From positions 1-40,214 of the forward strand of contig JAKSBK010000162.1 in the NCBI GenBank assembly GCA_022361155.1: 40,214 bases of DNA, read 5' to 3'. The notes under the pieces are model-generated. The model searched no databases and was not told where the DNA came from. It saw nothing but the letters and a program-made list of their open reading frames with translations. The position numbers and the translations under genes were made by a program. Shown in pieces: positions 1,195-27,738 of the stretch (position 1 is the first letter of the stretch; the number at the start of each line of letters is the position of its first letter). Source of the stretch: Pseudomonadota bacterium. GTDB lineage: Bacteria; Myxococcota_A; Polyangia; Polyangiales; JAKSBK01.

Positions 1195-1802
1195 ACAGCC
1201 GCGACCGAATCCTTCGCGCCCTGCGTGCCACCAGACACGAGCCCACGCAGGCTCCGGCGCCGTTCGGTCCGGCACTGCGTTATGCGGAACCAAGCAGGCA
1301 GTTCGTCGAGAGCTTCCGAGCCGTCGGCGGCGAGGCCCTGTGTTTCGCAAGCCGAGAGCTGCTGCCGCAGGCCCTGTCCGGCTTGGCTGTGGTCAACAGC
1401 GCGGAGCGTCGCTGCAGCTTGCTGCCGGATCTGGTGGCCGGCAACGTAGAGCTCGAGACGATCCGCGATCCCCACGAGCTCGAGGACCTCGACGTCATCA
1501 TCGCTCAAGCGCAGTTTGGGGTGGCGGAAAACGGTGCCCTGTGGATCGACGATAGCGAGCTTGCGCAACGTGTTGCCTTGTTCATAGCGCAGCACGTGGT
1601 GTTCGTGCTCGAGGCAAGCGCCGTGGTCGACAATATGCACCAGGCCTACGCGCGGCTGACGTTCAGCGAGCCGGGCTTCGGCGTATTCGTGTCCGGGCCG
1701 TCCAAAACGGCCGATATCGAGCAGTCCCTGGTGATAGGCGCCCACGGACCTCGCTCGGCCACGGTGCTCCTGTGGGACGAAACCGACGCTGGCGCGGGCT
1801 AG
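1191..1802 (+). CDS. lutC: LutC-type LUD-domain lactate utilisation protein
   Basis: A 203-residue LUD (DUF162) protein and the third component of the LutABC lactate oxidation complex. I chose the TTG at 1191, which overlaps the lutB stop by four bases and has a purine-rich AAGGCAGGA sequence just upstream. From this start the protein opens with NSRDRILRALR, a typical LutC amphipathic N-terminus. The family signature is visible as GVAENGALWI near residues 108-117, and a C-terminal RSATVLLWDE strand ends the fold. A longer reading from further upstream would run through lutB in another frame and is not credible. The gene ends tail to tail with trkH, with stops sharing the palindrome CTAG. Confidence 0.9.
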   Translation: MNSRDRILRALRATRHEPTQAPAPFGPALRYAEPSRQFVESFRAVGGEALCFASRELLPQALSGLAVVNSAERRCSLLPDLVAGNVELETIRDPHELEDLDVIIAQAQFGVAENGALWIDDSELAQRVALFIAQHVVFVLEASAVVDNMHQAYARLTFSEPGFGVFVSGPSKTADIEQSLVIGAHGPRSATVLLWDETDAGAG

Positions 1803-3268: not shown

Positions 3269-3283
3269 GAGAATGTGCGCGCT

Positions 3284-4642: not shown

Positions 4643-4790
4643 GTTCAGCAGCCTCGGGCCGGGAGCTCCCCCTACCACAGCAGCACAAGGCCGTCATCTG
4701 AGTCATCTGCGAGGAACCCCTTGTAATCACTTCGCTTCCGATGAAGGCTGCTCGCAAAATCCACTAAACACTTGCACAGTATTCGGGGAT

Positions 4791-12368: not shown

Positions 12369-13514
12369 TCAGCGGCAGAAGGGTCGGCCAGGGTGCGGCC
12401 TCTTGACCCAGCTCTCCCGCCAGTCGAGGAAGGCACGCACGCTGGGGTGCATGGGTCCCATGGCCGCACGTGCCTCCTCTTCTGACACCGTCCTGTCTGC
12501 GGCGGCGCCGCGCTGAGCCTTGTCGTAGCGGGCGATCACGGGCCGAACGCCGCTCTCCGAGAGCCGCCGCCTATGCCACGGATAGACTGGATGCGCATCC
12601 TTGCAGCCGCGCCTGATGTCCCCGGCGCTGCAGAAGAAGCGCAGGTGCATGTGATCGTCGTGCGCGAACCCAGGCTGACACGTGATCTGACCGAAGCGCT
12701 GCCACACATGGCGGGGGGCGCCGACTCGCTTCGCATGCTCCAGCAGCAAGCCGCGGACATGTTCGACCACGAAAACACGCTGGAGCGAGCTGCCGGCGTA
12801 CTCGATCAGCGACTGTACAAAAAGCCAGGTTCTGGCGACATCCAGACGTAGCGGCACGTCGTCGCTGGGATCGACCAGGTCCTTGTAGTCGGTGCCGGCT
12901 CCGGTGGGATCGATCGGCGCTGCAACCGAGGGCAGCGGTCTGCCATCAGGGTCGGTCAAGTAGAACAGGACATCCACGTCCCGACCGCTCTGGTGGGAGC
13001 CATGGTGCGCGATCGGGCCACCGCGCCGATGGCTCAGGTCGTTCACCACCAGCCGCCCGCCCGGAAGCTCGCGACCAACACGCGCCGCGGCCTGCACCAG
13101 TGCTTGCACGAGCTCGACCGTGCCGTAGCGTGCGTCAGCCTTGCGGCGGGATCTGTGGACGAAGCCCGGCCCCTGCCGGGGCAGCACGGCGGCGCCTTCG
13201 AGGCGCCCCGCAGCGGCGCCCCCTATCGACGTACTGTGTGCCGGTCTCAAATCGAGCACGCGTCTGATCACCGACCGCCGGCTGCGCCCCGTCGCATCGG
13301 CAGGGGGCGCGACCGGTCTCGGGCCGGCTCTCGCGGCCGCTGCTGGTCGCGCGGCTCGATGGGCACCGGCGACCGGGGGGTCGGCCCTTGAAGGCCCCGC
13401 AGGCAACGCTGGCAAGAGCAGGCCGATTCCCGCTGCAGCGCACGCGACCCCGCACGGGCGCCGACCCCTCGGCCTCGGCCCGCCGCCATGTCGATCGTTC
13501 AAAGCGAACCGCAC
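12369..13514 (-). CDS. penicillin-insensitive murein endopeptidase (peptidase M74, MepA-like)
   Basis: A 381-residue exported zinc endopeptidase expected to cleave peptide cross-links in peptidoglycan. The MepA motifs are present: NDLSHRRGGPIAHHGSHQSG leads into the zinc ligands His174 and Asp181 (same spacing as His113/Asp120 of E. coli MepA), and DDHMHLR supplies the histidines at 288 and 290. The N-terminus carries a basic stretch and a hydrophobic segment ending LPAGPSRA, a plausible signal peptide. A Pro/Ala/Arg-rich linker of about 80 residues separates it from the catalytic domain. The start is a GTG without a clear ribosome-binding site; a TATAGT box lies only a few bases upstream, so the true start is uncertain. 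Confidence 0.82.
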   Translation of the reverse strand: MRFALNDRHGGGPRPRGRRPCGVACAAAGIGLLLPALPAGPSRADPPVAGAHRAARPAAAARAGPRPVAPPADATGRSRRSVIRRVLDLRPAHSTSIGGAAAGRLEGAAVLPRQGPGFVHRSRRKADARYGTVELVQALVQAAARVGRELPGGRLVVNDLSHRRGGPIAHHGSHQSGRDVDVLFYLTDPDGRPLPSVAAPIDPTGAGTDYKDLVDPSDDVPLRLDVARTWLFVQSLIEYAGSSLQRVFVVEHVRGLLLEHAKRVGAPRHVWQRFGQITCQPGFAHDDHMHLRFFCSAGDIRRGCKDAHPVYPWHRRRLSESGVRPVIARYDKAQRGAAADRTVSEEEARAAMGPMHPSVRAFLDWRESWVKRPHPGRPFCR

Positions 13515-13543
13515 ACTATACCAACTGGACGCCGGTCACGCTC

Positions 13544-13569
13544 CTCGGATTCGAAGCTCGGATTCGAAG
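13544..13569 (+). repeat. perfect 13-bp tandem duplication
   Basis: The unit ctcggattcgaag is repeated exactly at 13544-13556 and 13557-13569, upstream of the murein endopeptidase gene. Each unit contains the palindrome TTCGAA. It could be a paired binding site or a simple duplication. Confidence 0.7.
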
Positions 13570-13624
13570 CTCCGAGCGCCACCACCGGCGGTCGTGGTCG
13601 TGGGCACCCAGGACCGCGGCCAAC

Positions 13625-13788
13625 GGCTAGTCTCGAGTTTGGCGGTTTTTGTGAGCGAAATCGCCGCGAAATCTGGCAGTTCAAGGCGCAACGACGAGGA
13701 ATGCTGGTGGCATTTTGAGGAGGAGCAACGCCGAAATGCCGGTTTTCCCGGGGATTGCAGCCGCGACAACCGCCAAACTCGAGGCTAG
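13625..13788. repeat. 164-bp imperfect palindrome at the 3' end of the dab/nuo operon
   Basis: The ends are inverted repeats of 21 bases with one mismatch (13627-13647 against 13768-13788; core CTCGAGTTTGGCGGTT). The homology continues inward at roughly two thirds identity through AATC, CC, GAAA and GGCA blocks to a central AATGC/GCATT stem near 13702-13718. The right end covers the stop codon of the last nuo-like gene. It looks like a short palindromic mobile repeat (MITE-like) or a giant 3' hairpin; no ORF inside is credible. Confidence 0.75.
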
Positions 13789-15401
13789 TTGGGGGCGCCG
13801 ACGCTCGCCAGCTCCACCGACAGCGGACGTGGAGGATGCCCGTGCCGCGGCCCGCCGTTGGCCACCACATCCTGCGTGGCGCCCTGCTCTACACGCTCGA
13901 CCAGCTTCTGCACCGAGGCGCTGGTCATGTCGAGCATCGGCGTCGGATACAGCCCGATGTAGAGGATCACGGCCAGCGTAGCGAACCCCACCACGAGCTC
14001 CCGCCCGGAGGCGTCCGGGGGAATCTGCAAGGTCTTGCGTGTGTACGTGCCCCAAAAGCCTCGCTGATGCCACACCAGGAAGTAGGCCGCGCTCAGGATC
14101 ACGCCCAAGACACCGATCACGGCATAGATCCAGTTCGCCTTGAACGCCCCGATGAAGATCAACACCTCCCCCGTGAACCCGGCCGTCCCCGGCATTGCGA
14201 TGAACGACAGGCCCACGAGGAACACCATGGTGCCGAGCTTTGGCATGTGCCACGTCAGACCCCCGCACGCGGCGAGGTCCGTCGAGCCCAGCCGATCCTG
14301 CACGAACATGATCAGCAGGTACAGCCCTGTACCCGTTACGGCCAGATTCACCAGGGTCATGATCACGCCCTGCAGCGCCTGCCCGTTGGCCGCCACCATG
14401 CCCAGCATGGCAACGCCCACGTGGCTTACGCTCGCATAAGCCAACAGCTTGCGAAAGTTCGATTGCACAAGCGCAATCAATGCGCCGTAGATGATCGCGA
14501 TCAGCGCCAGCACCCCAATGATCGATCCGTACGCGGTGAAAGCGTCGGGCGCGAGCGGCAGTAGAAAGCGTATGAAACCGAACACACCCAGCTTGAAACC
14601 AACCAAGAGTCCCCCCGCCGCCACGGGTGCATCCATGAGCGTGCTGGTCATCCACGTATGAAATGGAAAGAGCGGCCCCTTGAACGCAAATGCGACCCCC
14701 ATCAAGACCAGGATCAGCGCCTGCATCTGGAAGGAAATGGGCGTGTTCAACAGGACCGGGAAATCGAACGAGTAGGCCTGCTCGAGCCCCTGCGCGAGCG
14801 CATGCTCGTGGTAGTTGAGGCCCAGCAGGATGATCGCGATGGTCATCGGCGCCCCGCCCGCCACCATGTACAGCACGTACTTCTGCGCCGAGTAGCGCCG
14901 TTCTGCGCCAACGCCCCAGAGCTTGATCAGCAGAAAGACCGGAATCAGCGCGAGCTCCCAGAACACGAAGAACAGCACGAGGTCCACGGCAGCGAAGATA
15001 CCCATGGTCGTCGTTTCGGCGGCGAGCAACGCCATGAGGTAGGGCTTGAGCATGAACTTGCGGTTCTCCCACGAAGCCAGAAGCAGGAGCACGGTTGCCA
15101 GCGCGGTCACGGGCAGAAACAGCACGCTGATCCCGTCCACGCCCACGTGGTAGGTGATGCCTAGCGTGGGCATCCAAGCGGACTGTTCCGCGAACTGAAG
15201 CTCGGGGGTGCCGATCTGGAAATTGAATGCTACGAGCAAGGTCAAAACCAGCTCGGTTAGCGCTCCCACCAGGGCGGCCTCCCGCACGTGCGAGCCCCCG
15301 CTGAAATTGAGCAGCAGGGCCCACAGCAACGGAAAGAAAATAACGACAGACAGTATCGGAAATCCGATCTGATCGACCGCAGCTATCTCCTGGGGAATCA
15401 T
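13785..15401 (-). CDS. NuoM/NdhD-like antiporter subunit, third in DAB-type operon
   Basis: A 538-residue, roughly 14-helix membrane protein of the proton-translocating complex I/Mrp antiporter family. Key charged residues are retained: Glu in the TM5 motif FWELALIPVF, Lys in TM7 AFAFKGPLFPFHTW, Lys in TM8 LLVGFKLGVFGF and Glu in TM12 GTAGFTGEVLI. It therefore looks competent for ion translocation. The ATG overlaps the stop of the preceding gene (ATGA) and GAGG lies seven bases upstream. Its N-terminus (VDQIGFPIL) closely matches that of the preceding subunit, so the two are probably tandem duplicates. No genuine NADH-binding or quinone-module genes are nearby, so complex I membership is unlikely. 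Confidence 0.88.
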   Translation of the reverse strand: MIPQEIAAVDQIGFPILSVVIFFPLLWALLLNFSGGSHVREAALVGALTELVLTLLVAFNFQIGTPELQFAEQSAWMPTLGITYHVGVDGISVLFLPVTALATVLLLLASWENRKFMLKPYLMALLAAETTTMGIFAAVDLVLFFVFWELALIPVFLLIKLWGVGAERRYSAQKYVLYMVAGGAPMTIAIILLGLNYHEHALAQGLEQAYSFDFPVLLNTPISFQMQALILVLMGVAFAFKGPLFPFHTWMTSTLMDAPVAAGGLLVGFKLGVFGFIRFLLPLAPDAFTAYGSIIGVLALIAIIYGALIALVQSNFRKLLAYASVSHVGVAMLGMVAANGQALQGVIMTLVNLAVTGTGLYLLIMFVQDRLGSTDLAACGGLTWHMPKLGTMVFLVGLSFIAMPGTAGFTGEVLIFIGAFKANWIYAVIGVLGVILSAAYFLVWHQRGFWGTYTRKTLQIPPDASGRELVVGFATLAVILYIGLYPTPMLDMTSASVQKLVERVEQGATQDVVANGGPRHGHPPRPLSVELASVGAPN

Positions 15402-17017
15402 CGAAGCACCTCGGCGATCTGAGCATTCGGCCGCTCGCTGGGCTTCGGCCTTGGCTTGGCTCGAAGGAAGCCCGGACCAATGCGAGCGTGGGGCTTGTCA
15501 CCGGCGTGCCCCTCACCCCGTTCGAGCTTCTCAGCCACTGTGTGCAGGGACGCGTGGGTGGACTGCAGGAACGGCTCGGTGAACAGCCCGACCGTGAACA
15601 CCATGCCTATGATCACGCAGGCCACGAACAGCTCACGGCGCCGCAGGTCCGGCATGTCACGCACGGCCGCGATCCGGATTGGACCCAAAAACGCCCGTCT
15701 GAAATAGCGCAGGAAATAACAGGCCGTGACGAATACGCAGACTGCCGAGAACACGGCCATCCACCAGCGGGTCGACAACGCGCCCAGTACGATCAGGTGG
15801 TCGGCGTTGAAGCCGGAAGTGCCCGGGAGCCCGATGCTCGCAAGCGCCAACGCCAGAAACACGGCGGCGAGCACCGGCGTCGAGTGCGACAGGCCGCTCA
15901 GCACCGAAGCAGCCTGAGGGCCAAGACGCGTGTGAATAAACGCCGCAACAAAAAACAGGCCCGCACCCGTCAGACCGAGGTTGGCCATGTGAAGGAGGCC
16001 GCCTTGCAGTCCGTAGAAGTTGAGGGAAAACAGCCCGATGACCACGACGCCCATGTGCGCCACGCTGCCGAAAGCGAGCAGTCTCCGCAGGTTGACCTGG
16101 ACCAGGGCCGCTGCGCCACCGTAAAGAATGCTCGTCGCGCCCAGCGCGGCGACGATATCGAGGTACTCGTGGGCGGCGTCGGGCAGGAACGGCAGCACGA
16201 AACGCAAGATGCCGTAGGCGCCGAGCTTCACCCCCACCAGGAACACGGTCATGGCCACGATCGGTCCCTCCGCCAAGACCCGGGGCAACCAGGTGTGGAA
16301 AGGAACGATCGGCAGCTTGATGGCAAGCCCGAGCATCAACAGCAAGAAGATCGGACCTTGCGCCTCGGCCGGAATGCTGGATGCCAGCAAGGTGGCATAG
16401 TTCAGCGGCGTGTCCGGCCCCACCTCACCGCGCAGGAGCAGCACCCCAAAGAGAATGGACGCGGCTGCTCCGAGCATCATCAGGGTGTACTGAACCGCTG
16501 CTTCATGGCGCTTCTGACCGGTACCCCAGCGTGTGATCAAGAACCAACCCGGGATCAGCTCCGCCGTGAAAAAGAACCAGAACAGCATGAGGTCGAGCGA
16601 TACAAAGGCCCCCATCTTCATGCCCTGAAAAGCGAGCATGGCGATCAAGTACCACTTCACTCCTTGCTGGACGCAGAACTCGGTCAACAGCACCGCGAAG
16701 AAGGTCAGTAGTGCGATCAGCGGCAGGAACATCAAGTTCAGGCCGTCCACGCCCAGCGTGTAGCTCAAACCCAGACCGGGAACGCCCCCACCGTGCTCGA
16801 CGAACTGCAGGTCGGGTCCATGCGTCTGAAAGCTCAGCGCTACGACCACCGTCAGCAGGACCTCGAGCCCGGCACCGACCAGACCGATCTTGTATGCCTG
16901 ATGATCGTCCTCGATCAAGTTGAGGATCAGAGCGACAAGAAGCGGCAGGCAGATCAACGCGGTTAGAATCGGAAAACCGATCTGCTCGACTGAAGTTAGC
17001 TCGGTAAGATGATGCAT
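15398..17017 (-). CDS. NuoM/NdhD-like antiporter subunit, second in DAB-type operon
   Basis: A 539-residue membrane protein of the NuoL/M/N family. TM5 carries FTAELIPGWF with its Glu, TM7 LAIKLPIVPFHTWL with its Lys, and TM8 FLVGVKLGAYGIL with a Lys. In the TM12 motif, GTSGFNADHLIVLG has Asp where the family normally has Glu. The C-terminus is a hydrophilic tail of about 60 residues rich in Lys, Arg and Pro. The start has a GAGG five bases upstream and lies 23 bases after the NuoL-like gene. It is a likely tandem paralogue of the next gene (both begin VEQ/VDQIGFPIL). It probably acts in the membrane arm of the DabA complex; this is inference from context. Confidence 0.87.
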   Translation of the reverse strand: MHHLTELTSVEQIGFPILTALICLPLLVALILNLIEDDHQAYKIGLVGAGLEVLLTVVVALSFQTHGPDLQFVEHGGGVPGLGLSYTLGVDGLNLMFLPLIALLTFFAVLLTEFCVQQGVKWYLIAMLAFQGMKMGAFVSLDLMLFWFFFTAELIPGWFLITRWGTGQKRHEAAVQYTLMMLGAAASILFGVLLLRGEVGPDTPLNYATLLASSIPAEAQGPIFLLLMLGLAIKLPIVPFHTWLPRVLAEGPIVAMTVFLVGVKLGAYGILRFVLPFLPDAAHEYLDIVAALGATSILYGGAAALVQVNLRRLLAFGSVAHMGVVVIGLFSLNFYGLQGGLLHMANLGLTGAGLFFVAAFIHTRLGPQAASVLSGLSHSTPVLAAVFLALALASIGLPGTSGFNADHLIVLGALSTRWWMAVFSAVCVFVTACYFLRYFRRAFLGPIRIAAVRDMPDLRRRELFVACVIIGMVFTVGLFTEPFLQSTHASLHTVAEKLERGEGHAGDKPHARIGPGFLRAKPRPKPSERPNAQIAEVLR

Positions 17018-17040
17018 GGGTGCCTCGCAGACGACCGTCG

Positions 17041-19221
17041 CTACAGGAATGCGACCAGGACGATGAGTAGCAAGACCGCGACGATGGCCGGGGGTCCGCC
17101 CAGCATGGCTTCGATGCGCAAGAGCAGGTGGCCGAAACGCAGTACGATGTTGGCCGTGCCCTCATTGAGCCCCTTGCGAACGATGTAGGTTTCCACGAAG
17201 GACATGGGCAGCGCGGCGATCTTGGCCAGTGCTCCAAGCAGTCCCCGCGCATTGACCACCGGATCGGTGTGCATGGTGGCGCGTGCTTCCTTCCAGGCCT
17301 CGCGCGCGACCTTGGCGCGGGGCGGCGGGCCCTCCAATGCCGACGGAACTGGAACACGCCCCGTGGGCAGCGGGATACCCACGGCGCGGTCGACAACTTT
17401 GGTGTCGAAGCGCTCGAGCGCGCGGCCGATCTGCCAGCCGGCGCGTACCGTGTACGCTTCGTACATCTCATCGATGTAGAACTTGTTCAGCAACCGCAGA
17501 TAGAAGCTCTTCCAGCGTGAAGGCAACAGGTCCGCGGCTTCCACTCGATAGCGGTCGTGGTAGAGCGCCGTGAGCCAGCCTGCCATGAAAACGAGCACGA
17601 GCAGCGCTGCAGCAATGCCCACGAGAATCGGTGACGCGTTGCTCGCCGTCAGCGCAATGCCATCGCTGGTGAACGGATCGCCCCGGCTGCCCTCCACGTA
17701 GACTTGAAACCAGGTGCCGAGGAAACCACCGGGCAGCAGGCCGGCAGCCCAGGTCAGCGCCATGACGCCGAAAGCCAGCAATGCGGGCACGACCGGGGAC
17801 GGAGTGTGGTGATGGCCACCCTGACCGTGGCCGTGGGCTTCTTCGTGCCCGTGCTCGTCGTCCCCGCCGTGTCCCCCGTGGTGCGCAAAGGCGGCGTTGA
17901 CCAACCGTCGCGTGTAGAAAGCAGTCGTAAACAACATCATGAAAACGAACGCAATCAACACCCAGTCGCCCCGGTTTTGGATCACATGACCCAAGATCTC
18001 CGTTCGAAACCATTCGCTAAAGAACGGCACCAGCACCATGCCGAGCGCGCCCAACAAGAAGAAGTAATGCAACAAGCGCCCTTGGTTGCGTTCCGGTTTT
18101 TGGCTGTTGTCGGCCCCGCCGGGCAGATGGTGGATGATCGAGGGACTGGTCAAGAACAGGTACGTCTTGACCGCGGCGTGGGTGAGCATGTGAAAGACAC
18201 CGGCCGCATACCAGCCCAGACCGCAGGCGACGAACATGATCCCCAACTGCGAAATCGTGGAATAGGCCAGGATACCCTTGATGTGGGTCTGAACGAGACC
18301 CACGGTGCCCGAGAAAAAGGCCGTCGCAGCACCGATGATCGTGACCATCAAAAGGGCGTTTGGAGCCTGATCGAAAAAGAAGTGGTTGCGGCCAACGAGA
18401 TACACACCGTCCTGGACGGCCGCGTGGATGAGCGCCGAGGCAGGAGTTGGCCCCTCCATCGCCGTGGTCAACCAGCTTGAAAAAGGCAGCTGCGCCGACT
18501 TCGCCATGGCGGCCAGCAGCAGGCAGAGCGCGATGGCAGTCGCGACCCCCTCGTCGATGCCCTGCGTTTCGATCCGATCCTGCACTTCGAGGTAATCGAG
18601 GGTGCCGAATTCCTTGGCAATCATGAAGATGGCCAACAGAAAGCCCACATCGCCAACGCGCCCCATCAGCGATGCCTTGGTCGCATGCTTGACCGCTACC
18701 GGGCGCTCGTAGTGGAAGCCGATCAGCATCGAGAGCATCAATCCGACGCCCTCCCAGCCCAGGAAGCAGGTAAGGTAGTTGCCGCCCATAACCAGCATGG
18801 CAAGCATCACGACCAGGATCGGCATGATCGTGAAGAAGCGCGGGTAGCTGCGCTCCATCTGGAAGTAGTTCCTCGAGAACCAGGCGATCGGTACCGGAAA
18901 GATCGTGGCGACGATCATCATGAACACCGCCAGCCGATCCAGCAGGAAGGCGAGCTCGATTCTCAGATCACCGCTTACGAACCAGGTCCATACGACGACG
19001 CGCTGAGGCGTAGGATCCACGAACAACACGTAGTAGAGCAGGATCCAGGAGTTGATGAATCCTGCGGTAATCGAGCCCCAGGTGAGCAGCTGCATGGTCG
19101 ACTGCGAGTACAGCCGCTCGCCCGTGAGAATGTTGGCCCAGTTCAACAGACATGCCAACAGCGGCAGCCCCGGCACCAACACCACGGTGAGCCATATGTG
19201 AAATGGTAGCTCGCTCTCCAT
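17041..19221 (-). CDS. NuoL/DabB-like antiporter subunit with His-rich loop
   Basis: A 726-residue, NuoL/NdhF/DabB-family membrane protein, the usual membrane partner of DabA. GWEGVG (TM5 Glu), AAMAKSAQLPFSSWL (TM7 Lys) and HAAVKTYLFL (TM11 Lys) are present. Two departures from NuoL stand out. The TM8 stretch HAAVQDGVYL is two residues shorter than the usual HAATMVTAGVYL. The conserved TM12 GFFSKDEIL reads FFSEWFRTEIL, without the Lys at that place. Residues 447-472 contain ten His with Asp/Glu in a cytoplasmic or periplasmic loop, a probable metal-binding segment. GGAGGT precedes the ATG. It follows dabA by 73 bases and lies in the same operon. Confidence 0.88.
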   Translation of the reverse strand: MESELPFHIWLTVVLVPGLPLLACLLNWANILTGERLYSQSTMQLLTWGSITAGFINSWILLYYVLFVDPTPQRVVVWTWFVSGDLRIELAFLLDRLAVFMMIVATIFPVPIAWFSRNYFQMERSYPRFFTIMPILVVMLAMLVMGGNYLTCFLGWEGVGLMLSMLIGFHYERPVAVKHATKASLMGRVGDVGFLLAIFMIAKEFGTLDYLEVQDRIETQGIDEGVATAIALCLLLAAMAKSAQLPFSSWLTTAMEGPTPASALIHAAVQDGVYLVGRNHFFFDQAPNALLMVTIIGAATAFFSGTVGLVQTHIKGILAYSTISQLGIMFVACGLGWYAAGVFHMLTHAAVKTYLFLTSPSIIHHLPGGADNSQKPERNQGRLLHYFFLLGALGMVLVPFFSEWFRTEILGHVIQNRGDWVLIAFVFMMLFTTAFYTRRLVNAAFAHHGGHGGDDEHGHEEAHGHGQGGHHHTPSPVVPALLAFGVMALTWAAGLLPGGFLGTWFQVYVEGSRGDPFTSDGIALTASNASPILVGIAAALLVLVFMAGWLTALYHDRYRVEAADLLPSRWKSFYLRLLNKFYIDEMYEAYTVRAGWQIGRALERFDTKVVDRAVGIPLPTGRVPVPSALEGPPPRAKVAREAWKEARATMHTDPVVNARGLLGALAKIAALPMSFVETYIVRKGLNEGTANIVLRFGHLLLRIEAMLGGPPAIVAVLLLIVLVAFL

Positions 19222-19294
19222 CCGGCAACCTCCAACGCGCTACGCGCTGCGCGTCACTGCTATCATCGCTGTGCCTTCCAGCTTTCCTGAGCCT

Positions 19295-22200
19295 CTAGCT
19301 TTGCTGAGCCTGTGCCAGGTTGATGCCTGCGCTCGGGTGCTTTTCGTCGCCGAGGTCGATGAGCGCCGGCGGCACGTAGCAACAATACTTGCCACGATAC
19401 CAATCCATCGAACGGGTCACGGTCGGGATTGGGTTCGGCTCCCTGGTGTACGGAACAAAGCCTCCGTCCTTGACGGAGAACACGCTGAGCTGCTTCGTGT
19501 CGGGATTGAGCGCCGTAAGATGCAGCCACTGTTTGGCAACCAGCGTCATGATGATGGGCTGCCGGGTCGCGATCCCCAGCAGCGCTTCCTCGGTATGCTC
19601 GATGATGAGCTGCAACCGCTGCGCCTCGTGGATATTGACCATCTGGAACGGCAGCCCGGTCCTGAGATCGCTCATGACCCCCTCCATCACACCCAAGATG
19701 CCGGCCACGTTCTGGGGGATCTTGGTGTCGCAGCCGTAGACCTTGTTGTCGACCGTGGAATGGTAGTACTCCAGGTTGATGCCGGCACCGACCGGACCGA
19801 CCGCAAACAAGATCTTCTCCAAAACCGCGCCCTCCCGGTCGAACGTGGGGTCGTAGGAGATCAGGAACATGCGTCGGTCGTAAAAGATGCCTCGCGTATG
19901 GCAGCGTCGGCCGACAAACGCGCAAGCATTGGTCGCGTGGCCGAGCTCAGGCACCGACATGGCGAAGTCGGTCGAGCGGCTCTCCACATGGCGCAACGAT
20001 CGTTCGGGCGTGGAATCCTTGGGTGAGAAGGGAAAACGACGGCAGCGCTCGTGAGCGGACATAGTCCGTGCCAGATCGAGCACGCGCACGGCCTCGAGAA
20101 AATCTTCCCGGCGTTCGGGCGGGATACGCTCGACGTCCAGGTAATCGATGGCCTCGTTGCAGGTATCGTGGCACGCGCCGACAAACCAGGTGTCGTCGGG
20201 GATGACGATGTTTTCCTTGGCCAGGGCGGCCCGGATGTTGGGCTTGTTCGCAAGTGCCGCCATGGCGCGTGCGTTGGGCGCTCCATCTTTGCCGCCACAA
20301 GCACCGCAGGAATACGCCGACTCGAAGGGGTTGTTGTAGCTGCTCGATCCATGGCCGTGAATCACGACGATCTTAGAAAACACGTCCAACAACCCGAGCT
20401 GCTTCAGAATGAACCCGAGCCTGAAGGCCTGCTGCTCGGGGGTGTAGCCGAACTGATGGCCTGCCTTGCAGGCGTCCTCGGTGCCCGACGGCGCATCCAG
20501 GGTCTGATCGCTGAGCTTGGGCGGGATCAACGCCCTGGCGAATACGTTGTCGACTTTCTTGGAAAGGCGGGGTCCGAAGACCGCCAGATACAACTGCCCA
20601 ATGATAGGCAGCCCCATCAGATCGAGCAGGAAGTAGGACGAAACCAGGTTGCGCTTGCTCTCCCAGTACAGATCGTGCATCACGTGAAGCCAGTGCAGCG
20701 CACTGGTGTGCTTTTCCATGATGCGGTCGCTGTTGCCCTCCCTGACGGCTGTCTGCACCACGGGAACCAGGTCGCTAAACATGGGCATGGCGCGGACCTC
20801 GGCGGAACCCTCCTTCATGTCGTCGGGGATCAAGTCGAGGTTGGGGTAAGCCACCTCCTTGATCGTGTTGACGGGCGTTTGCACGATCGGGCACAGGGGG
20901 TCCGTTCCGTGGCCACCGGTCCCTTCCCAGTGCATGGCCATGGCGTAGAAGCCAGCGCCGCCCAGGGTCTCCACGTCGGGATCGATCTCCTCGAGCTGCC
21001 GCCGAATGCCCTCCTCGCGCTCGTCGATGCAAAAGACAGTTTGGAATTTCGGCCGTACGACACGCTTTTCCCAGCGGGCCCGGTTGCGGTTGAGCACGAG
21101 GGGGCCGAGGATCTCGTGCCGGTAATGGTTCTCGAAGGCTGTCAGCCACACGAACCCGTGCTTGTCCGGCGGGTAGGCTTCGAGGCAATCGATCAGCGCG
21201 TCGCGCTCGCTGAGCGATAGCGAGCGAATTTGCTCACCCGAAAGGCCCAAATGCTGACCGAGGTAAAACAGCCGCATGACCTTGTTGTTGAGCGTGTGGC
21301 CTGCGGCCGTGCCCGCGAGTTTTCCGTTGCGGTGAAGCCAAGCAAGCTCGGCGACGCTCAGCCAGCGATCGTCCTGGGGGCCCGAGACCGGCGCGTCTGC
21401 AACGAGCGTCCGGGCACGATCCGCCAGGTACTCGGGCAGCGCGCCCTGGAAATAGAGCTTGCGCACCAGAAATTCGGCGGGATGCTTTTCGCAGTAGCGG
21501 CGCAGCGAGGCGATGGTGCCGTCGATCTTCCACAGCTTGCGGCAGAAGTCCGCGACAACGACGCGCTCGACGAACAAGCGGATCGCGAGGAAGTCGAGCA
21601 AGCTGGCCGGGAAGTGCTTCTGCATATAGTGTTCGGGGCGTTCGCCGCGCCAGTTCATCATACCGGCCCAGCCGGGAAGCTTGCGCGAGGTCCAGCCTAG
21701 GAACGACCCCATCCGCTCTTCGGGCACGCCCAGCGCCTCGAGCGACTCCAGGATCACGTCTTCAGGAAGCTCCGGCAGCCTGAGCAGCTCTTCCTTCCAG
21801 CCCTCGATGCCCCAGTAGCTCAACGTCTTGTCGTCTTCGAAGTTTCGCTTCCACGACTTCCACAGCCCCTGCTCACGCGCGGGCCAATGCCAGGCGGCCA
21901 TGCCGTGGTCGAGGTAGGCTCCCGCCATCAGCATCAGGTACTGGTTGATCTGGTGGCCCAGATCGACCCCGGTCAACGTTTGCAAGAAGTGTGTGTGCGT
22001 GCAGCTGTCATGCAAATGGCCCTCTTCGAGGCCGATCTTGTTGATCTCCTTGCCGACAAGCTCCTCGGCGTAGTCCAGGATCTGACGCCGTGTGTCGGCA
22101 GCGCGAAGCTTGCCCTGGAGCTCGGCATTGTCGGCTTCGCTCCTGCGCAAAGCCACCAGTTCCATCAGCGGTTCGAAGCCATCGCGACCGATGCGATCCG

Positions 22201-23476
22201 GCCCCAGATTCTCGGCGACGAGGCGCGCGAGACGTGCGCCCTTGGTCTCGCCTACCTCGTCCGCCTCCAACCTGCGCTCTTGTTCGCGATCGATCAGCCT
22301 GTCGACGCTCTGGCGAAGCTCGGGCGAAAGCGCGACCGGCACGCCACCGCGGTACTCGAGCTGCGCCATCGTATCGAGCGCCTCCACGTCGGCGCCCACG
22401 ACGTCCTGCTCGTACAGGTGCTGGGGATGCGTCGGCGAAAACGGGTCGCTCGCGCCGTACGCTGCCAGTGCGGCCTGATACAGGCTGTTGACCGCGTAGG
22501 CCTCGAGGTTGTCGCTAAAATGGCGAGCCAAGGCGCTGACCGTGCCGTAGACCCCGAAATGCCTTGGGACCAGCTTGCGAAGCAGACGTGCTTCGGCCTG
22601 AAGCCAGCGCTGCCGAATGGTCTCCGGCCGCACCAGGTCGCGGATAGGCTCGTCGTGAAAGACCCGATCGATGATGGCGAGGTAGCCTTCACGCCGGTCG
22701 AGCGGGACCGCCATGGCGCTGAACCACGGCTCGAGCTCGCCCTGGTAGGTACCGTACTTGGCTGCGGTGTCGCTGGCCCGCCTACGAGGTCTGGCGATTG
22801 GATCCAGATCGCGCTTGACCTTCTCTCGCAGCCAACCGGGCGCGTCGACGCTCGTGTGGGCCTGCACCCAATGCGCCAAGGTCCAGTCCCGACCAACGCG
22901 CTCGAGACCGGCGGTCAGCTCCTTCGCTGCCGAATCCAGCAGCGCCTTGCGCACCTTGCCGGGCACGTCGGCACGGAATTGCGAGCTGCCCTTGCCATGA
23001 GCCATGATGTACGGAAGCTGATCGGGATCGATGGGATCGATCCCGCGCACCAGGTGGGTAAGCTGCACCTCCTGGGCGTCGATCTCACGTTCGCCGATTT
23101 TCGCGAGCGTTCCCTTGACCGGCAGATCTTCTCGGTACTCGACCGCCTCCAATAGGTCTTCGTCGGTGATGCGGCCCTCGGCGTACCACTGGCGGAAGCG
23201 CGTGTTCGGCATGAAGGGCTTCGCGCCGTTGATGCGCGCGCCCGTGATGATGGACTCCTCGAACGACAGCCCCGCTTCGTCTCCCTTGCCGTGCATGTGA
23301 GAAGCGGGGATGCCCTCGCTCGACCAGTTCTCGAATGCGTGCAGCGTGTTGTGATGAACGAACGTGGTGATCGGCAGCTGCGACGGTAGATAGTGTCCAA
23401 TGTGCTCGATCTCGCCGTGCAAGCGCTCGTGAGGAGTCAGCTCTTTGCCTTCCTTGTCCCCATGTGCGTGTGCCAT
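19295..23476 (-). CDS. dabA: DabA-type inorganic carbon transporter subunit (DUF2309/UPF0753), long form
   Basis: A 1393-residue cytoplasmic DUF2309 protein. In studied DABs, DabA is a zinc enzyme resembling a beta-carbonic anhydrase that hydrates CO2 to bicarbonate vectorially, coupled to a cation gradient by the membrane subunit DabB. The expected ligands are all here: Cys816 and Asp818 in FCIDEREEGIRR, His1042 in IHGHGSSSY and Cys1057 in SAYSCGACGG. The His-to-Cys spacing of 15 equals that of Halothiobacillus DabA (His524, Cys539). The region before the catalytic Cys is about 465 residues longer than in that protein, placing this in a long-form subgroup. LPITTFVHHNTLHAF near residue 35 is the usual DUF2309 N-terminal motif. 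AGGTGAACGG precedes the ATG. The neighbours are a NuoM-like gene 101 bases upstream and a NuoL-like gene downstream. The family is certain; function here is by homology. Confidence 0.93.
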   Translation of the reverse strand: MAHAHGDKEGKELTPHERLHGEIEHIGHYLPSQLPITTFVHHNTLHAFENWSSEGIPASHMHGKGDEAGLSFEESIITGARINGAKPFMPNTRFRQWYAEGRITDEDLLEAVEYREDLPVKGTLAKIGEREIDAQEVQLTHLVRGIDPIDPDQLPYIMAHGKGSSQFRADVPGKVRKALLDSAAKELTAGLERVGRDWTLAHWVQAHTSVDAPGWLREKVKRDLDPIARPRRRASDTAAKYGTYQGELEPWFSAMAVPLDRREGYLAIIDRVFHDEPIRDLVRPETIRQRWLQAEARLLRKLVPRHFGVYGTVSALARHFSDNLEAYAVNSLYQAALAAYGASDPFSPTHPQHLYEQDVVGADVEALDTMAQLEYRGGVPVALSPELRQSVDRLIDREQERRLEADEVGETKGARLARLVAENLGPDRIGRDGFEPLMELVALRRSEADNAELQGKLRAADTRRQILDYAEELVGKEINKIGLEEGHLHDSCTHTHFLQTLTGVDLGHQINQYLMLMAGAYLDHGMAAWHWPAREQGLWKSWKRNFEDDKTLSYWGIEGWKEELLRLPELPEDVILESLEALGVPEERMGSFLGWTSRKLPGWAGMMNWRGERPEHYMQKHFPASLLDFLAIRLFVERVVVADFCRKLWKIDGTIASLRRYCEKHPAEFLVRKLYFQGALPEYLADRARTLVADAPVSGPQDDRWLSVAELAWLHRNGKLAGTAAGHTLNNKVMRLFYLGQHLGLSGEQIRSLSLSERDALIDCLEAYPPDKHGFVWLTAFENHYRHEILGPLVLNRNRARWEKRVVRPKFQTVFCIDEREEGIRRQLEEIDPDVETLGGAGFYAMAMHWEGTGGHGTDPLCPIVQTPVNTIKEVAYPNLDLIPDDMKEGSAEVRAMPMFSDLVPVVQTAVREGNSDRIMEKHTSALHWLHVMHDLYWESKRNLVSSYFLLDLMGLPIIGQLYLAVFGPRLSKKVDNVFARALIPPKLSDQTLDAPSGTEDACKAGHQFGYTPEQQAFRLGFILKQLGLLDVFSKIVVIHGHGSSSYNNPFESAYSCGACGGKDGAPNARAMAALANKPNIRAALAKENIVIPDDTWFVGACHDTCNEAIDYLDVERIPPERREDFLEAVRVLDLARTMSAHERCRRFPFSPKDSTPERSLRHVESRSTDFAMSVPELGHATNACAFVGRRCHTRGIFYDRRMFLISYDPTFDREGAVLEKILFAVGPVGAGINLEYYHSTVDNKVYGCDTKIPQNVAGILGVMEGVMSDLRTGLPFQMVNIHEAQRLQLIIEHTEEALLGIATRQPIIMTLVAKQWLHLTALNPDTKQLSVFSVKDGGFVPYTREPNPIPTVTRSMDWYRGKYCCYVPPALIDLGDEKHPSAGINLAQAQQS

Positions 23477-23577
23477 CCGTTCACCTACCTCGTTGTCTGT
23501 GCCGAAAGGACGTTGCGTCTGGACCGCCGCGGGTGATCACCCTGTTGCGCAGCGCCGGCAACGCGCCACGATTCGAG

Positions 23578-25062
23578 CTAGAAGCCACTTGCTACGGCCA
23601 CTCCGTGCCCTGCAAAGGGAGCTGCGATATGTGCCAAGGTGGGCTGCATGATGTCCATGACGAGCGAGGGGAAACACCCGAGCACGACGGCAAGGCCAAC
23701 GAGCGGAATCGCTGCGACAACCTCCGCCTTATTCATGTCCGTCAAGCCTGCCCAGCGAGCGTTCATGGGTCCCATGAAGACCTTGTCGATGGCCCGCAGT
23801 GAATACGCCATCCCGACCAGAACCCCCGCACTGCCGACCATGACCCACAGACCCTGAGCCTGAATGGAAGCCGTCATGGCGTGGAACTCGCCCACGAAAC
23901 CCGAGAAACCCGGCAGGCCCATCGCAGCAAGCAACGTAGCGATGGTAAACGCAGAATAGACGGGCACGCGCGTAACCAGGCCGCCAAAGTCGCTCAACTG
24001 ACGGCAGTGCGTCTTGGAGTAGAGCCAGCCGACCAACATAAAGGCGGCGGCCGCCAGGATACCGTGGGAGAGCATCTGCATGCTGGCGCCGACAAACCCC
24101 GCGGTGCTCAAGCTTGCCGTCCCCATCATCACGAAGCCCATGTGGCTGATGGAGGAGAAGGCCACCATGCCCTTGAGATCGGTTTGGCGCCATGCCAGCA
24201 CGGCGCCATAAACCAGATTGATAACACCAAGAATCATCAGGTACTGAGCGAACCACTCAAGTCCGAGCGGCAGCATTTCCCCTGCACGCAACACACCGTA
24301 GGCTCCCATCTTCAACAGCACACCGGACAGCAGCATGCTCAGAGGGGTGGGCGCTTCCACGTGCGCCAGCGCCAACCAGCCGTGGAAAGGGAAAGCGGGG
24401 ATTTTGACTGCAAAACCAAGGAACAGACCGACGAAAACGAGTGCCTGAAACTCCGTATCCCAGCCACGGGCGATCTCGACCATCTTGTCCATGTCAAAGG
24501 TGTGCACCGGCGAGTTCAGGTAGATGGTCATCATCGCCAGAAGCACCACCAAGGAGCCGCCAAGCGTGTATAGAAAGATGGTCACGGTCGCGGCCATGCG
24601 GTTCTTGCCACCCCAGATCCCGATCAGGAAATACAGCGGGAGCAGCGAGATCTCGAAGAACATGTAGAACACGAGCCAATCGTGGGCGATGAACACCCCG
24701 ATCATCGAGAACTCGAGCAGCAGGAACCACACGTATAGGCCCTTGGGTCGATCCGTGTACCAGGCGCAGGCCACCATGGCAGAAAAAGCCAGCAGGGTCG
24801 TCAACAGCAGCAGCGGATACGACAGCCCGTCGACTCCGATGTAGTACTCCATCCCGATCTCGGGATCCCAGGGATAGCGTTCCACGAACTGCAAGCCACC
24901 GTGCGGATCGAACGATCCCAAAAGCCCCCACGACAGCACGAGCGAGCCCGCCGAAGCCAGGATTGCTATCGCTCGAATCCGGACCAACGCGTCCTTGGGC
25001 ATCATCAGAACGATGACCAGGGCGATAGCCGGCAACCACAGAACGACATTTAAGATACCCAC
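23578..25062 (-). CDS. NuoM-like antiporter subunit, first in DAB-type operon
   Basis: A 494-residue membrane protein, the most canonical NuoM relative of the three. The Glu in MFFEISLLPLYFLIGIWG (TM5), the Lys in GFAVKIPAFPFHGWL (TM7), AHVEAPTP, the Lys in SGVLLKMGAYGVLR (TM8) and the Glu in GFSGFVGEFHA (TM12) are all kept. I start it at GTG 25062 because GAGG lies six bases upstream and the protein then begins with a membrane helix (NVVLWLPAIALVIVLMMP). Longer readings add about 88 residues of non-membrane, low-plausibility sequence. It lies between the SulP gene and dabA with gaps of 76 and 101 bases. Confidence 0.89.
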   Translation of the reverse strand: MGILNVVLWLPAIALVIVLMMPKDALVRIRAIAILASAGSLVLSWGLLGSFDPHGGLQFVERYPWDPEIGMEYYIGVDGLSYPLLLLTTLLAFSAMVACAWYTDRPKGLYVWFLLLEFSMIGVFIAHDWLVFYMFFEISLLPLYFLIGIWGGKNRMAATVTIFLYTLGGSLVVLLAMMTIYLNSPVHTFDMDKMVEIARGWDTEFQALVFVGLFLGFAVKIPAFPFHGWLALAHVEAPTPLSMLLSGVLLKMGAYGVLRAGEMLPLGLEWFAQYLMILGVINLVYGAVLAWRQTDLKGMVAFSSISHMGFVMMGTASLSTAGFVGASMQMLSHGILAAAAFMLVGWLYSKTHCRQLSDFGGLVTRVPVYSAFTIATLLAAMGLPGFSGFVGEFHAMTASIQAQGLWVMVGSAGVLVGMAYSLRAIDKVFMGPMNARWAGLTDMNKAEVVAAIPLVGLAVVLGCFPSLVMDIMQPTLAHIAAPFAGHGVAVASGF

Positions 25063-25138
25063 ATCGGACCTCGAAACGGCGTGCAGATTGTACTGGCGGT
25101 AGGGAAAGCCAGGCGCGGTACAGGAAGCGTGCCTGAGT

Positions 25139-26788
25139 TTAGCTCGCTCCGACCGGGCTGCCGGCCTTGGCTTCTTTGCGCACGAGCGAGGAAAGCGGGT
25201 GATGCGTGCTGTTGGCCAGGTGGTCCTTGGAACGCGACACCACCTTGCCGCCACCGCGTGCGTAGTCCGCTTCGAAATCGTGCAGGCGCTCGTTGACGGT
25301 GTGGTCGACCAGATGCACCTCCCCATAGTCGAGCACGATGGTCTGCCCTCGGGGCACGGCCAGGAGCTTGCCCTGTATGCCCATGAAGTTACCGAAGTTC
25401 AGGGCGCGCTTGAGCTTGATCACGTGCGTGTCGGCAGCTTCCTGTGCGACCTCGACATCGGCCTTGAACAGGTTGCCCACAGAGCAGCCTTTGATGATGT
25501 TGGTGATCAGACCGCAGACGATGCCCACGAGCACGCCCATCAGCAGGTCCTCGAACACCACGACCAACATGGTGATGGTCATGTAGAGGAACTCTTCTTT
25601 ACCCAAATGCAGGGCGTGGACGAACTCCTTGGGGTGCGCGAGCCGGAAACCGATCACGCACAGGACACCGGCCAGTGCAGCTTTGGGAATATTCTCGAGC
25701 AGCGGGGATGCGAACGCGACACAGAGCAGCAGCAGGGTGCCGTGGAAGAAGTTCGCCCAGCGGGTGCGGGCACCGTTCTGGATGTTGGCCGCGCTACGAA
25801 CCACCTCTGCGATCATGGGCAGACCGCCGATCATGCTGGAAAGCGCGTTACCCACGCCTTTGCCTACCAGCTCGAGCTTCATGCTGGAGGTGCGTTTCCA
25901 CGGGTCGAGCTTGTCGACCGCTGCAGCGGTCAGGAGCGACTCGAGGCTGTTGACGAACAGGTACATGAAGGACCACTTGGCCAATTTGCCCATGGGAGCG
26001 CCGAAGTCGGGCGCCGTGAAGCCGGCCAAAAAGCTCTCCGGCAAGTCGACGAGGTAACCCTTCCCGTCCGCGTCGGTCATCTTGTCCACGCCCAGGGTCA
26101 TCGACAGGGCCACCGTGACGAGCACGGCTACCAGGGCCGCCGGAAGAATTTTTGCGACGGCCTTCATCATGGGCCAAAACACCGTGATTATCACGGCGAT
26201 ACCACCCAAGAGCGCCACCGGCGCCACCATCTCGCCGAACGCCGGGACGATCTTGAGGACCGTCTGGTGCATGGGCGTGGACGGGGTCTTCAACCCCAAC
26301 GCCACAAAGACCTGTTTGACCATGATGATGACGCCGATGCCGGCCAGCATGCCGTGCACCACCGATAGCGGGAAGAACGCGGTGAGCTTGCCCGCGTTCA
26401 TGAACCCGAGAACAATCTGGCAAAAGCCGCAGATGGCACCCGCGGCCAGGGCGTACCGGAAGCCGGCCTGGATATCACCCTGGCCCATGTCTTCGACGGC
26501 GCCTAGGGTGATCGCGATCAGGCCCGCGGCGGGACCGTTGATGGTCACGTACGAGCCGCTGACTAGCGAGATCACCATCCCGCCGAGGAAGCCGGCGATG
26601 ATGCCCGCCATGGCCGGCGCGTTCGAGGCCAGCGCGATGCCGATGCACAGCGGCAACGCGATCAAGAAGATCACGATGCCGGAAACCAGGTCCGACTTCC
26701 AGTTCTCGATCAGGCCCGGAATCCAGTCCTTGGGGACCGGTCCGACGTCTGCCTCGCCCCCGGTTGCTTGAGCGTTGTCTGATGCCAT
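25139..26788 (-). CDS. SulP-family anion transporter with STAS domain, probable bicarbonate importer
   Basis: A 549-residue SLC26/SulP protein. The signature SYVTINGPAAGLIAITLG is near residue 80, and the 12-14 membrane helices are followed by a C-terminal STAS domain (about residues 445-530) with IVLDYGEVHLVDH in place of the usual LDxSxVxxIDxTG loop. The subgroup includes bicarbonate:Na+ symporters such as BicA and also sulfate carriers; substrate cannot be read from sequence alone. Its place at the head of an operon with dabA argues for bicarbonate. The start was set at ATG 26788, with GAGGGG eight bases before; a GTG sits directly upstream. The first residues are hydrophilic, then KDWIPGLIENWKSD leads into TM1, typical of SulP. 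Confidence 0.9.
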   Translation of the reverse strand: MASDNAQATGGEADVGPVPKDWIPGLIENWKSDLVSGIVIFLIALPLCIGIALASNAPAMAGIIAGFLGGMVISLVSGSYVTINGPAAGLIAITLGAVEDMGQGDIQAGFRYALAAGAICGFCQIVLGFMNAGKLTAFFPLSVVHGMLAGIGVIIMVKQVFVALGLKTPSTPMHQTVLKIVPAFGEMVAPVALLGGIAVIITVFWPMMKAVAKILPAALVAVLVTVALSMTLGVDKMTDADGKGYLVDLPESFLAGFTAPDFGAPMGKLAKWSFMYLFVNSLESLLTAAAVDKLDPWKRTSSMKLELVGKGVGNALSSMIGGLPMIAEVVRSAANIQNGARTRWANFFHGTLLLLCVAFASPLLENIPKAALAGVLCVIGFRLAHPKEFVHALHLGKEEFLYMTITMLVVVFEDLLMGVLVGIVCGLITNIIKGCSVGNLFKADVEVAQEAADTHVIKLKRALNFGNFMGIQGKLLAVPRGQTIVLDYGEVHLVDHTVNERLHDFEADYARGGGKVVSRSKDHLANSTHHPLSSLVRKEAKAGSPVGAS

Positions 26789-27666
26789 CACGAACCCCTC
26801 GGCCCTGCAATCAATCCTGTTTCACCACAGAGTAAGGGCCGGTCGGACTCCATGGCCGGGAGAGTGTCATCACGAAACGACCAGCGTGTCAACCGGCCTG
26901 TACGCGCATTGCCGCGCGCAAAAAAGACCGCTGCTCTCCTTCCTCGGGTCCAAGAATTTCCCGGGCCGCGAGAGTGCGCAGGCAGCGTGCATGGACCCCG
27001 TTGCTCACGTTGTTCACCCGGTGTACGCAATCTCGGGCGTGACCTGGCACGGCAAACCGCTTGCCGGACAGGGGCACGCGTTCAGCTACACAAGTAAAGG
27101 GCGCCGGCGGAAGCGCGAAGACCAAACCGCAGCGGCCGGGCCGCCGACTCAGCAATGGGCAACTGCTGTTTCAGCGAGCTCCGCCGGCTATAGTACCCCA
27201 ACTCTGCCGGAACGCATTCTCTTTTTGATTTGCCTGATTGTTTGTTGGGTCGTAGCCGGCTGCGCAGCGAAATGCATAGTGTACGTTTTCTGCCTAACCT
27301 GAAGCTGGAGCCCAGCGGGGCTTCACCGTCAGCGAAATTGGATACCCCGTCGCGGCTCGTGGTGCTCGTTCGCCTGGTAGTCCTCTATTATTAGGTATGC
27401 AGCTGTATCGTCCTGCAAATCGGCCAGAAAATGGGGCAGCGGCATTGAACCGGCACGCGGCGTCATCCGCCACGATCCGACCGCTGGACGATTCCTGCGC
27501 TCGGAGCCGCGAACCCCGACGCCCTTTGCGCACGGAAAGCTGGCTCTTTGATACGCGTGCGCGTCTGTACAGGTGCGGGTTCCCAGGGCGCGCACGCAGT
27601 CTGCGCCGCCTACCACCTCGGCTCTGCGACCTCTGCTCTGCGACCTCTGCTCTGCGCCTCGGCCGG
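26789..27666. other. long intergenic region upstream of the SulP-dabA operon
   Basis: Nearly 900 bases hold no gene I can support. The part nearest the operon is GC-rich. The stretch 27180-27300 is more AT-rich and on the minus strand contains TACTAT and ACACTAT hexamers that could serve as -10 boxes, but no convincing -35 partner. The operon promoter and any CO2-responsive operator are expected here. A potential reading frame 26775-27302 on the plus strand has a hydrophobic end but no ribosome-binding site or recognisable sequence. Confidence 0.5.
27621..27662 (+). repeat. three 14-bp tandem repeats just 3' of tRNA-Gly
   Basis: The unit gctctgcgacctct occurs exactly twice (27621-27634, 27635-27648), followed by a degenerate third copy ending 27662, five bases from the tRNA 3' end. 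It is probably replication slippage. No adjacent integrase or att-like duplication is seen. Confidence 0.75.

Positions 27667-27738
<72 letters not shown>

Follow-up and report, generated by a model that had tools for sequence, protein, structure and literature searches.

The window analysed here is the whole of a 40,214-nucleotide stretch (contig C162, positions 1-40214) from a Myxococcota_A genome of 5.41 Mb in 608 contigs, 99.2% complete. The system in question is an operon that joins DabA, the putative CO2-hydrating protein of DAB-type inorganic carbon systems, to four antiporter-like subunits and a SulP transporter. The six genes lie on the minus strand from 26788 to 13785 in the order SulP, NuoM-A, DabA, NuoL, NuoM-B, NuoM-C; Pfam and NCBIfam matches agree on this codirectional order, as an earlier note on the same DNA had claimed. 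The features are as follows.

25139 to 26788, minus strand: SulP-family anion transporter, 549 amino acids, ATG start (PF00916, E=3.4e-56)
23578 to 25062, minus strand: NuoM-A, antiporter-like subunit (PF00361, E=4e-66; TIGR01972, 461 bits)
19295 to 23476, minus strand: DabA, giant form, 1393 amino acids (PF10070, E=2.9e-200; 667.9 bits against a cut-off of 25)
21944 to 23134, minus strand: N-terminal insertion in DabA, residues 115-511, about 350 amino acids relative to DabA2 93-139 (46 amino acids there), from the phmmer blocks
20621 to 20623, minus strand: codon of DabA Asp952, at the finger position of DabA2 Glu444 (alignment of 94 DabAs)
19937 to 19939, minus strand: codon of DabA His1180, at the Gln/His position of beta-carbonic anhydrases, Leu658 in DabA2 (family alignment; the phmmer alignment is ungapped there)
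17041 to 19221, minus strand: NuoL-like subunit in the DabB position, 726 amino acids (PF00361 and PF00662)
15398 to 17017, minus strand: NuoM-B, antiporter-like subunit (PF00361, E=3.2e-53)
13785 to 15401, minus strand: NuoM-C, antiporter-like subunit (PF00361, E=2.1e-51)

The genes are closely packed. The NuoM-C start overlaps the NuoM-B stop by four bases (ATGA), the remaining gaps span 23-101 bases, and the NuoL-type partner adjoins DabA, 73 bases downstream. The longest NuoM-A frame starts at 25326, inside sulP; the GTG at 25062, right behind a GAGG, is the likelier start. Upstream of sulP (26700-27700) there are no promoter-like sites and two terminator-like sites, against 0.8 expected. 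The remark that no other complex I subunit accompanies these genes holds for the frames scanned, namely the six genes and 19 other window frames, out of 135 listed; in those 19, Pfam gave no complex I or Mrp family match. Elsewhere in the genome PF00361 matches occur at two further places. Contig C196 carries a complex I operon with NuoE, F, J and K domains and three PF00361 genes (A-D and G-I were not looked for), and C254 an Mrp-type operon with MrpF, MbhD/E, MnhB, a NuoK/MrpC-type gene and three PF00361 genes. In view of the separate complex I on C196, the reading of the window genes as a complex I fragment was rejected.

DabA is related to the DabA2 chain of the solved DAB2 of Halothiobacillus neapolitanus (DabA2-DabB2, PDB 9rd0; phmmer against 9rd0_A, E=5.7e-60, three significant blocks), and is about 520 amino acids longer than that 870-residue chain. 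The same five active-site residues are kept (C816, D818, R820, H1042 and C1057, equivalent to DabA2 C351, D353, R355, H524 and C539). This C-D-R-H-C set is present in 93 of 94 DabAs, the exception being locus L017, which lacks the last two and lies at a contig end. Besides the N-terminal insertion there is a second one of about 90 amino acids relative to DabA2, between residues 641 and 777. The structure predicted for residues 1-700 is largely helical, at a mean pLDDT of 67.8, and found no fold match in the PDB at E<=0.001. Asp952 sits in a hydrophobic segment (948-968), so that the protein has an acidic finger.

The antiporter-like subunits differ in their channel residues. NuoM-A has all four, the Glu of transmembrane helix (TM) 5, the Lys of TM7, the Lys of TM8 and the Glu of TM12, and the motif table gives the same for NuoM-C; a short TM8 deletion is common to NuoM-B and NuoM-C. 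NuoL carries E157, R188, D191 and K241, followed by a long C-terminal region with a hydrophobic segment at its end. Its predicted model is of low confidence past residue 360, with pLDDT below 50 over most of the C-terminal region. None of the NuoL rows of the tabulated multi-antiporter loci shows the SKDE motif known from complex I NuoL, and the same holds for DabB2, where the finger Glu of DabA is described as filling its place (PMC13144422). The window system is like DAB2 in having an acidic finger (Asp here, Glu444 in DAB2) and a NuoL-type partner without the TM12 Lys/Asp. It differs in having four antiporters instead of one, a NuoL of 726 amino acids against 551, His1180 in place of Leu658, and E157 in place of Ile151. 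By eye, the NuoL tails of L004, L005, L006, L008, L016 and L019 contain tandem amphipathic units of the type ER.ERVVFQRG, about two to four copies before the final hydrophobic stretch, and the window NuoL seems to hold about one; these units may lengthen a lateral helix along the arm.

Relatives were collected by seeking PF10070 in 377 genomes of the phylum, of which 73, the window's genome included, carry a match. From these, 76 regions plus the window gave 77 phylum loci in 65 of the 73 genomes; the eight omitted are fragmentary matches or, in one case, a near copy. A protein search of named genome contigs added 17 loci (12 Actinomycetota, one Chloroflexota and four metagenome-assembled genomes (MAGs) of Competibacteraceae or other Gammaproteobacteria). 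Automatic rules sorted the phylum loci into 23 with one antiporter upstream of DabA and none downstream, 42 with none upstream and one or two frames downstream, seven with at least three antiporters, and five unclear or cut. Among the 42, two downstream frames are found in 35 and one fused frame in L119 and L122; L103 and L129 are cut by a contig end, and L127, L130 and L132 have NuoL only.

The window order ARRANGEMENTS (SulP, NuoM-A, DabA, NuoL, NuoM-B, NuoM-C, one strand) recurs in L110, which belongs to a different family of the phylum. It is also found in L005, L006, L010 and L016, there followed by a fifth antiporter. L011 matches the order up to a contig end, and L007 and L008 have five antiporters on contigs cut before SulP. 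The five DabA and antiporter genes are also found in L083 and L084, with SulP on the opposite strand, and in L086, with no SulP within the stretch. Because the same order recurs in other phyla, it is not due to chance. The fifth antiporter of the Actinomycetota groups with an Mrp D subunit of the window's own genome (support 100).

The antiporter tree, built by a quick method with SH-aLRT supports, holds 87 rows (86 of 182 aligned sequences and one complex I NuoN) and carries a long-branch warning, mostly for the second antiporter of two-antiporter loci. Each antiporter position of the window forms its own clade: the NuoM-A position with a support of 100, the NuoL of DabA-first loci with 99, NuoM-B together with gammaproteobacterial fusions with 96, and NuoM-C with 84 (96 for the part holding the window). 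NuoM-B, NuoM-C and the second antiporters of two-antiporter loci make up one group (support 99). Since the four positions are separate clades across phyla, they are old lineages and not recent copies in the window's genome. NuoL and NuoM-B form a single open frame of about 1050 amino acids in L012, L014 and L018, and a NuoL-NuoM-B fusion is also found elsewhere in the tree, in L119 and L122, thus in two lineages in all; the L012 fusion protein shows two PF00361 stretches in Pfam. As a sign that the two parts touch, the fusions are suggestive, not decisive. Together with the clades they show that DabA, NuoL and the NuoM-like proteins are linked genetically, and have long been so. In L012, a Competibacteraceae MAG, a YhgA-like putative transposase gene (13233-14369) lies between DabA and the fusion.

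The DabA tree (94 rows, finger and N-terminal columns removed) splits with a support of 100 into 65 DabA-first rows and 29 others, the latter comprising the 23 one-antiporter rows, four unclear ones, L065 and L069. Within the DabA-first branch, four-antiporter loci stand on both sides of the first split (the window with Actinomycetota and Chloroflexota against the rest; supports 80 and 94), and the 42 loci with one or two downstream frames form one side of a branch with a support of 98. If the root lies between the two DabA groups, this suggests, at moderate support, that the four-antiporter form would be ancestral to the DabA-first branch and the two-antiporter form reduced. The window's DabA, NuoM-A, NuoM-B and NuoM-C group with Actinomycetota and Chloroflexota rows, not with the same-order loci L083 and L086, although for DabA the support is only 80. 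As to signs of horizontal transfer, NuoL has no settled position in the tree, and the tRNA-Gly gene described below has no recognisable mobile gene next to it.

The two DabA branches are also separated by residue classes. At the position of DabA2 658, Leu is found in all 23 one-antiporter rows, in L065 and L069 and in four of the five unclear rows. His is found in all 42 DabA-first loci with one or two downstream frames, the window, L083, L084, L086, L110 and L104, in 11 of 13 Actinomycetota and Chloroflexota rows (L013 and L017 have gaps) and in 4/4 gammaproteobacterial rows, and thus in 63 of 63 readable DabA-first rows. Of 123 records with a match, 40 were listed, and six plasmid DabAs chosen among these, belonging to Alpha- and Gammaproteobacteria and to Haloarcula, all have the antiporter gene first, the Leu and a finger Glu. 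Gene order follows the same line: the antiporter comes first in the sampled one-antiporter DABs, whereas DabA precedes NuoL in the window. The finger position is acidic in 22 of 23 one-antiporter rows, in none of the 42 DabA-first rows with one or two frames, and in 7/7 rows with at least three antiporters, with Asp or Glu also in all four gammaproteobacterial rows; any acid within -9 to +11 of it occurs in two of the 42. The NuoL TM5 Glu (E. coli Glu144, DabB2 Ile151, window E157), which is assigned to an ion pair close to the membrane-subunit interface (PMC13144422), is absent from all 23 one-antiporter DabBs. It is present in 41 of the 42 DabA-first loci (L103 has a gap), in 7/7 phylum loci with three or four antiporters (five from the DabA-first branch and two, L065 and L069, from the other) and in ten of 13 named rows, the other three being gammaproteobacterial fusions aligned in their NuoM-B half. 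This Glu goes with neighbouring antiporter genes, with L127, L130 and L132, in which no second antiporter was found, as possible exceptions. Sixteen NuoLs of the 42 loci were chosen and ten could be cut at the TM7 Lys; these end 200-229 residues past it, without the TM12-14 region.

L065 and L069, from two families of the phylum, have SulP and DabA directly before Mrp-type small subunits, followed by MrpD-like, NuoL-like and NuoM-like genes; the small subunits match MrpF and MrpG in L069, MnhB in L065 and MbhD/E in both. Here DabA is joined to what looks like an Mrp arm. The DabAs of these loci are of the Leu type and sister to the one-antiporter rows.

The window DabA system, as far as its sequences tell, is a member of a little-studied second branch, in which the active site and the coupling parts differ from the one solved example. 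Of the idea of an expanded DAB put forward in the earlier note, the multi-antiporter character and the separation from complex I stand. The expansion, taken as DAB2 with added parts, is weakened, as the four-antiporter form appears old rather than recent, and two marks of the DAB2 type, Leu658 and a DabB TM5 residue other than Glu, are absent, the window having His1180 and Glu157. It is somewhat probable that the operon encodes a CO2-hydrating complex on a redox-free, complex-I-like arm. Compared with DAB2, its components point to a NuoL that can switch, to additional channels and to an active site of a more ordinary kind. A wider proposal, for which we would claim a little less than an even chance, is that DABs comprise two mechanistic classes. 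The DabA-first class would keep the beta-carbonic anhydrase His, a switchable NuoL and an ancestrally four-antiporter arm with SulP, as a gradient-driven counterpart of cyanobacterial NDH-1MS without the redox module. Its two-antiporter members would be reduced forms in which two NuoM genes, the TM12-14 region of NuoL and the acidic finger residue are gone, and without this acid and this region they would have to couple by a route other than that proposed for DAB2.

The complex would hydrate CO2 in the cytoplasm, driven by a proton (or sodium) gradient. DabA would dock on NuoL through the finger helix, Asp952 replacing the TM12 Lys/Asp that NuoL lacks; NuoL would contact NuoM-B, and NuoM-C and NuoM-A would complete the complex-I-like arm. 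Ion inflow may switch NuoL through the interface ion pairs E157/R188 and K241/D191 and thereby open the catalytic site, where His1180 may aid catalysis, like its counterpart in ordinary beta-carbonic anhydrases. The mechanism proposed for DAB2 rests on Glu444 and the altered ion pair (Ile151), and has the gradient act via a DabB held open on a latent site (PMC13144422). A larger number of coupled channels could raise the ion cost per CO2 and give a steeper bicarbonate gradient at low CO2. SulP may carry or exchange bicarbonate, and the product would feed carboxylases.

Several observations weigh against this picture. Leu658, which replaces the beta-carbonic anhydrase Gln/His, is reported as strictly conserved in 150 homologues (PMC13144422). 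The L658Q change did not confer carbonic anhydrase activity on DAB2 in vitro, and DAB2 tolerated several changes at this site in vivo (PMC13144422), so His1180 may mean little. According to the same study, Glu restored at DabB2 151 halved the growth yield and E444Q abolished DAB2 activity; Gln is the finger residue in 13/13 Actinomycetota and Chloroflexota relatives. NuoM-B of the window has lost Glu at the TM5 position, with a Glu two residues further on, and L130 and L132 have the TM5 Glu of NuoL and room downstream, yet only one antiporter frame was found. The splits in residues and arrangement come down to few events on the tree (three changes for the finger acid, one for gene order); the Fisher tests treat related sequences as independent, and no evidence of repeated events is drawn from them. 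The assembly has a contamination of 4.11% in its 608 contigs. Finally, the genome contains other carbonic anhydrase candidates, so that the DAB need not be the sole supply.

These candidates are an alpha-carbonic anhydrase frame (G000:C394:9378-10022), whose start looks like a lipobox by eye and which is probably an exported lipoprotein, and a gamma-carbonic anhydrase-like PaaY homologue below cut-off, the same test being positive in all 14 control genomes. The idea of a genome without any other carbonic anhydrase was therefore dropped. A beta-carbonic anhydrase gave no match in this genome, classes other than alpha, beta and gamma not having been searched for. Across the phylum an anticorrelation between DAB and beta-carbonic anhydrase was considered and rejected: of the 377 genomes 267 have the latter, among them a number of those with a DAB. 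In six genomes a beta-carbonic anhydrase match is located less than 5 kb from DabA (G022:C27, G038:C1, G073:C78, G210:C205, G304:C64 and G330:C188), in the first three of these on the far side of SulP (loci L126, L097 and L121). The large subunit of RuBisCO has no match in the whole genome, in agreement with the absence stated earlier for the window; carboxysome genes were not searched for.

The best solved relative of SulP is 6ki1 (E=5.3e-29), listed as a low affinity sulfate transporter, which we take to be BicA. Glu283 of SulP aligns with an Asp of this chain. The BicA equivalog NF050096 was scored well below its cut-off (136 bits against 880), and no STAS domain was matched at E<=0.001. 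BicA and other SulP-SLC26 carriers are the known systems closest to this protein. Within the retrieved stretches, on either strand, SulP occurs in none of the 23 one-antiporter loci, in 24 of the 42 DabA-first loci with one or two downstream frames, and in six of the seven multi-antiporter loci, making 30 of 49 for the last two groups together.

This distribution also bears on the strongest alternative, that the operon holds two machines: DabA and NuoL working as in DAB2, and the three NuoMs forming a separate Mrp-like antiporter that sustains the gradient used by SulP. The complete channel residues of NuoM-A and NuoM-C, the frequency of SulP in this class of loci and the Mrp-type small subunits between DabA and the antiporters in L065 and L069 speak for it. 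An Mrp antiporter likewise has PF00361 subunits in tandem, but its small subunits have no match in the scanned window frames and the genome's Mrp-type operon is on C254; moreover, NuoL and NuoM-B are fused in two lineages. This arrangement is on balance unlikely. More doubtful still is that DabA performs another reaction or runs in reverse, an exergonic reaction driving ion export through the antiporters. Such a role was proposed before the CO2 function was known (PMC5700660), a Leptospirillum DUF2309 gene made E. coli more tolerant of peroxide and chromate (PMC9080137), and the DabA-first branch is longer and different at the Leu/His position; the five active-site residues are nevertheless kept, changing them impaired DAB2-dependent growth, and beta-carbonic anhydrase genes lie near DabA in the six genomes named above. 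That the operon consists of displaced or decaying complex I subunits beside an unrelated DabA is hardly credible: NuoM-A does lie near the genome's own complex I NuoM in the antiporter tree, but complex I is encoded separately, the order is conserved across phyla, and the open frames and most channel residues are intact.

Compared with known systems, the preferred reading, a CO2-hydrating complex on a complex-I-like arm, has a parallel in cyanobacterial NDH-1MS with CupA, where a CO2-hydrating protein that depends on Zn likewise sits on an antiporter-like subunit of such an arm, at the cytoplasmic face (PMC6981117). The fold of CupA is drastically unlike known carbonic anhydrases (PMC6981117), whereas DabA2 is beta-carbonic anhydrase-like, and NDH-1MS is redox-driven, whereas no redox subunit was found in the window. 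Respiratory complex I differs in its quinone/NADH module and small membrane subunits, which have no match in the scanned frames and are encoded on C196. Operons of this type were known before. The COGNAT "clade C" of COG3002/YbcC neighbourhoods, described in 2017, has DabA upstream of NuoL with SulP and NuoM (PMC5700660), a neighbourhood also found in the window, and the proposal that more membrane genes mean more ions moved, which predates the known CO2 role, was printed in the same paper. Its clade C section mentions neither a CO2 function nor residue classes, and neither how many NuoM genes there are nor any fusions. No report of the Leu/His split, the four antiporter lineages, the fusions or the reduced form was found in the papers searched, although other papers and supplements may hold them, and the two-branch residue split, the co-inherited four antiporter lineages and the NuoL-NuoM fusions seem to be new.

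In the surroundings of the operon, a tRNA-Gly(gcc) gene (27665-27738) precedes sulP by about 0.9 kb on the same strand. TrkH and TrkA potassium-uptake genes occupy 1799-4678, on the operon's strand and about 9 kb away. Between 5450 and 10220 an impB/mucB-family polymerase frame is followed by a DNA polymerase III alpha-type frame, presumably an ImuB-DnaE2 mutagenesis cassette.

For the family, the finding means that a large branch of DabA systems has, in its readable rows, Leu658 replaced by His and Ile151 by Glu, with Glu444 often gone, and so offers natural variants bearing on the one-wayness of the carbonic anhydrase. If the multi-antiporter arm is physical, it would be a complex-I-like membrane arm that works without electron transfer, and would bear on the number of coupled channels and on the energy cost and steepness of CO2 capture. 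For the organism, which has no RuBisCO, the operon suggests that CO2 is captured in a DAB-like manner.

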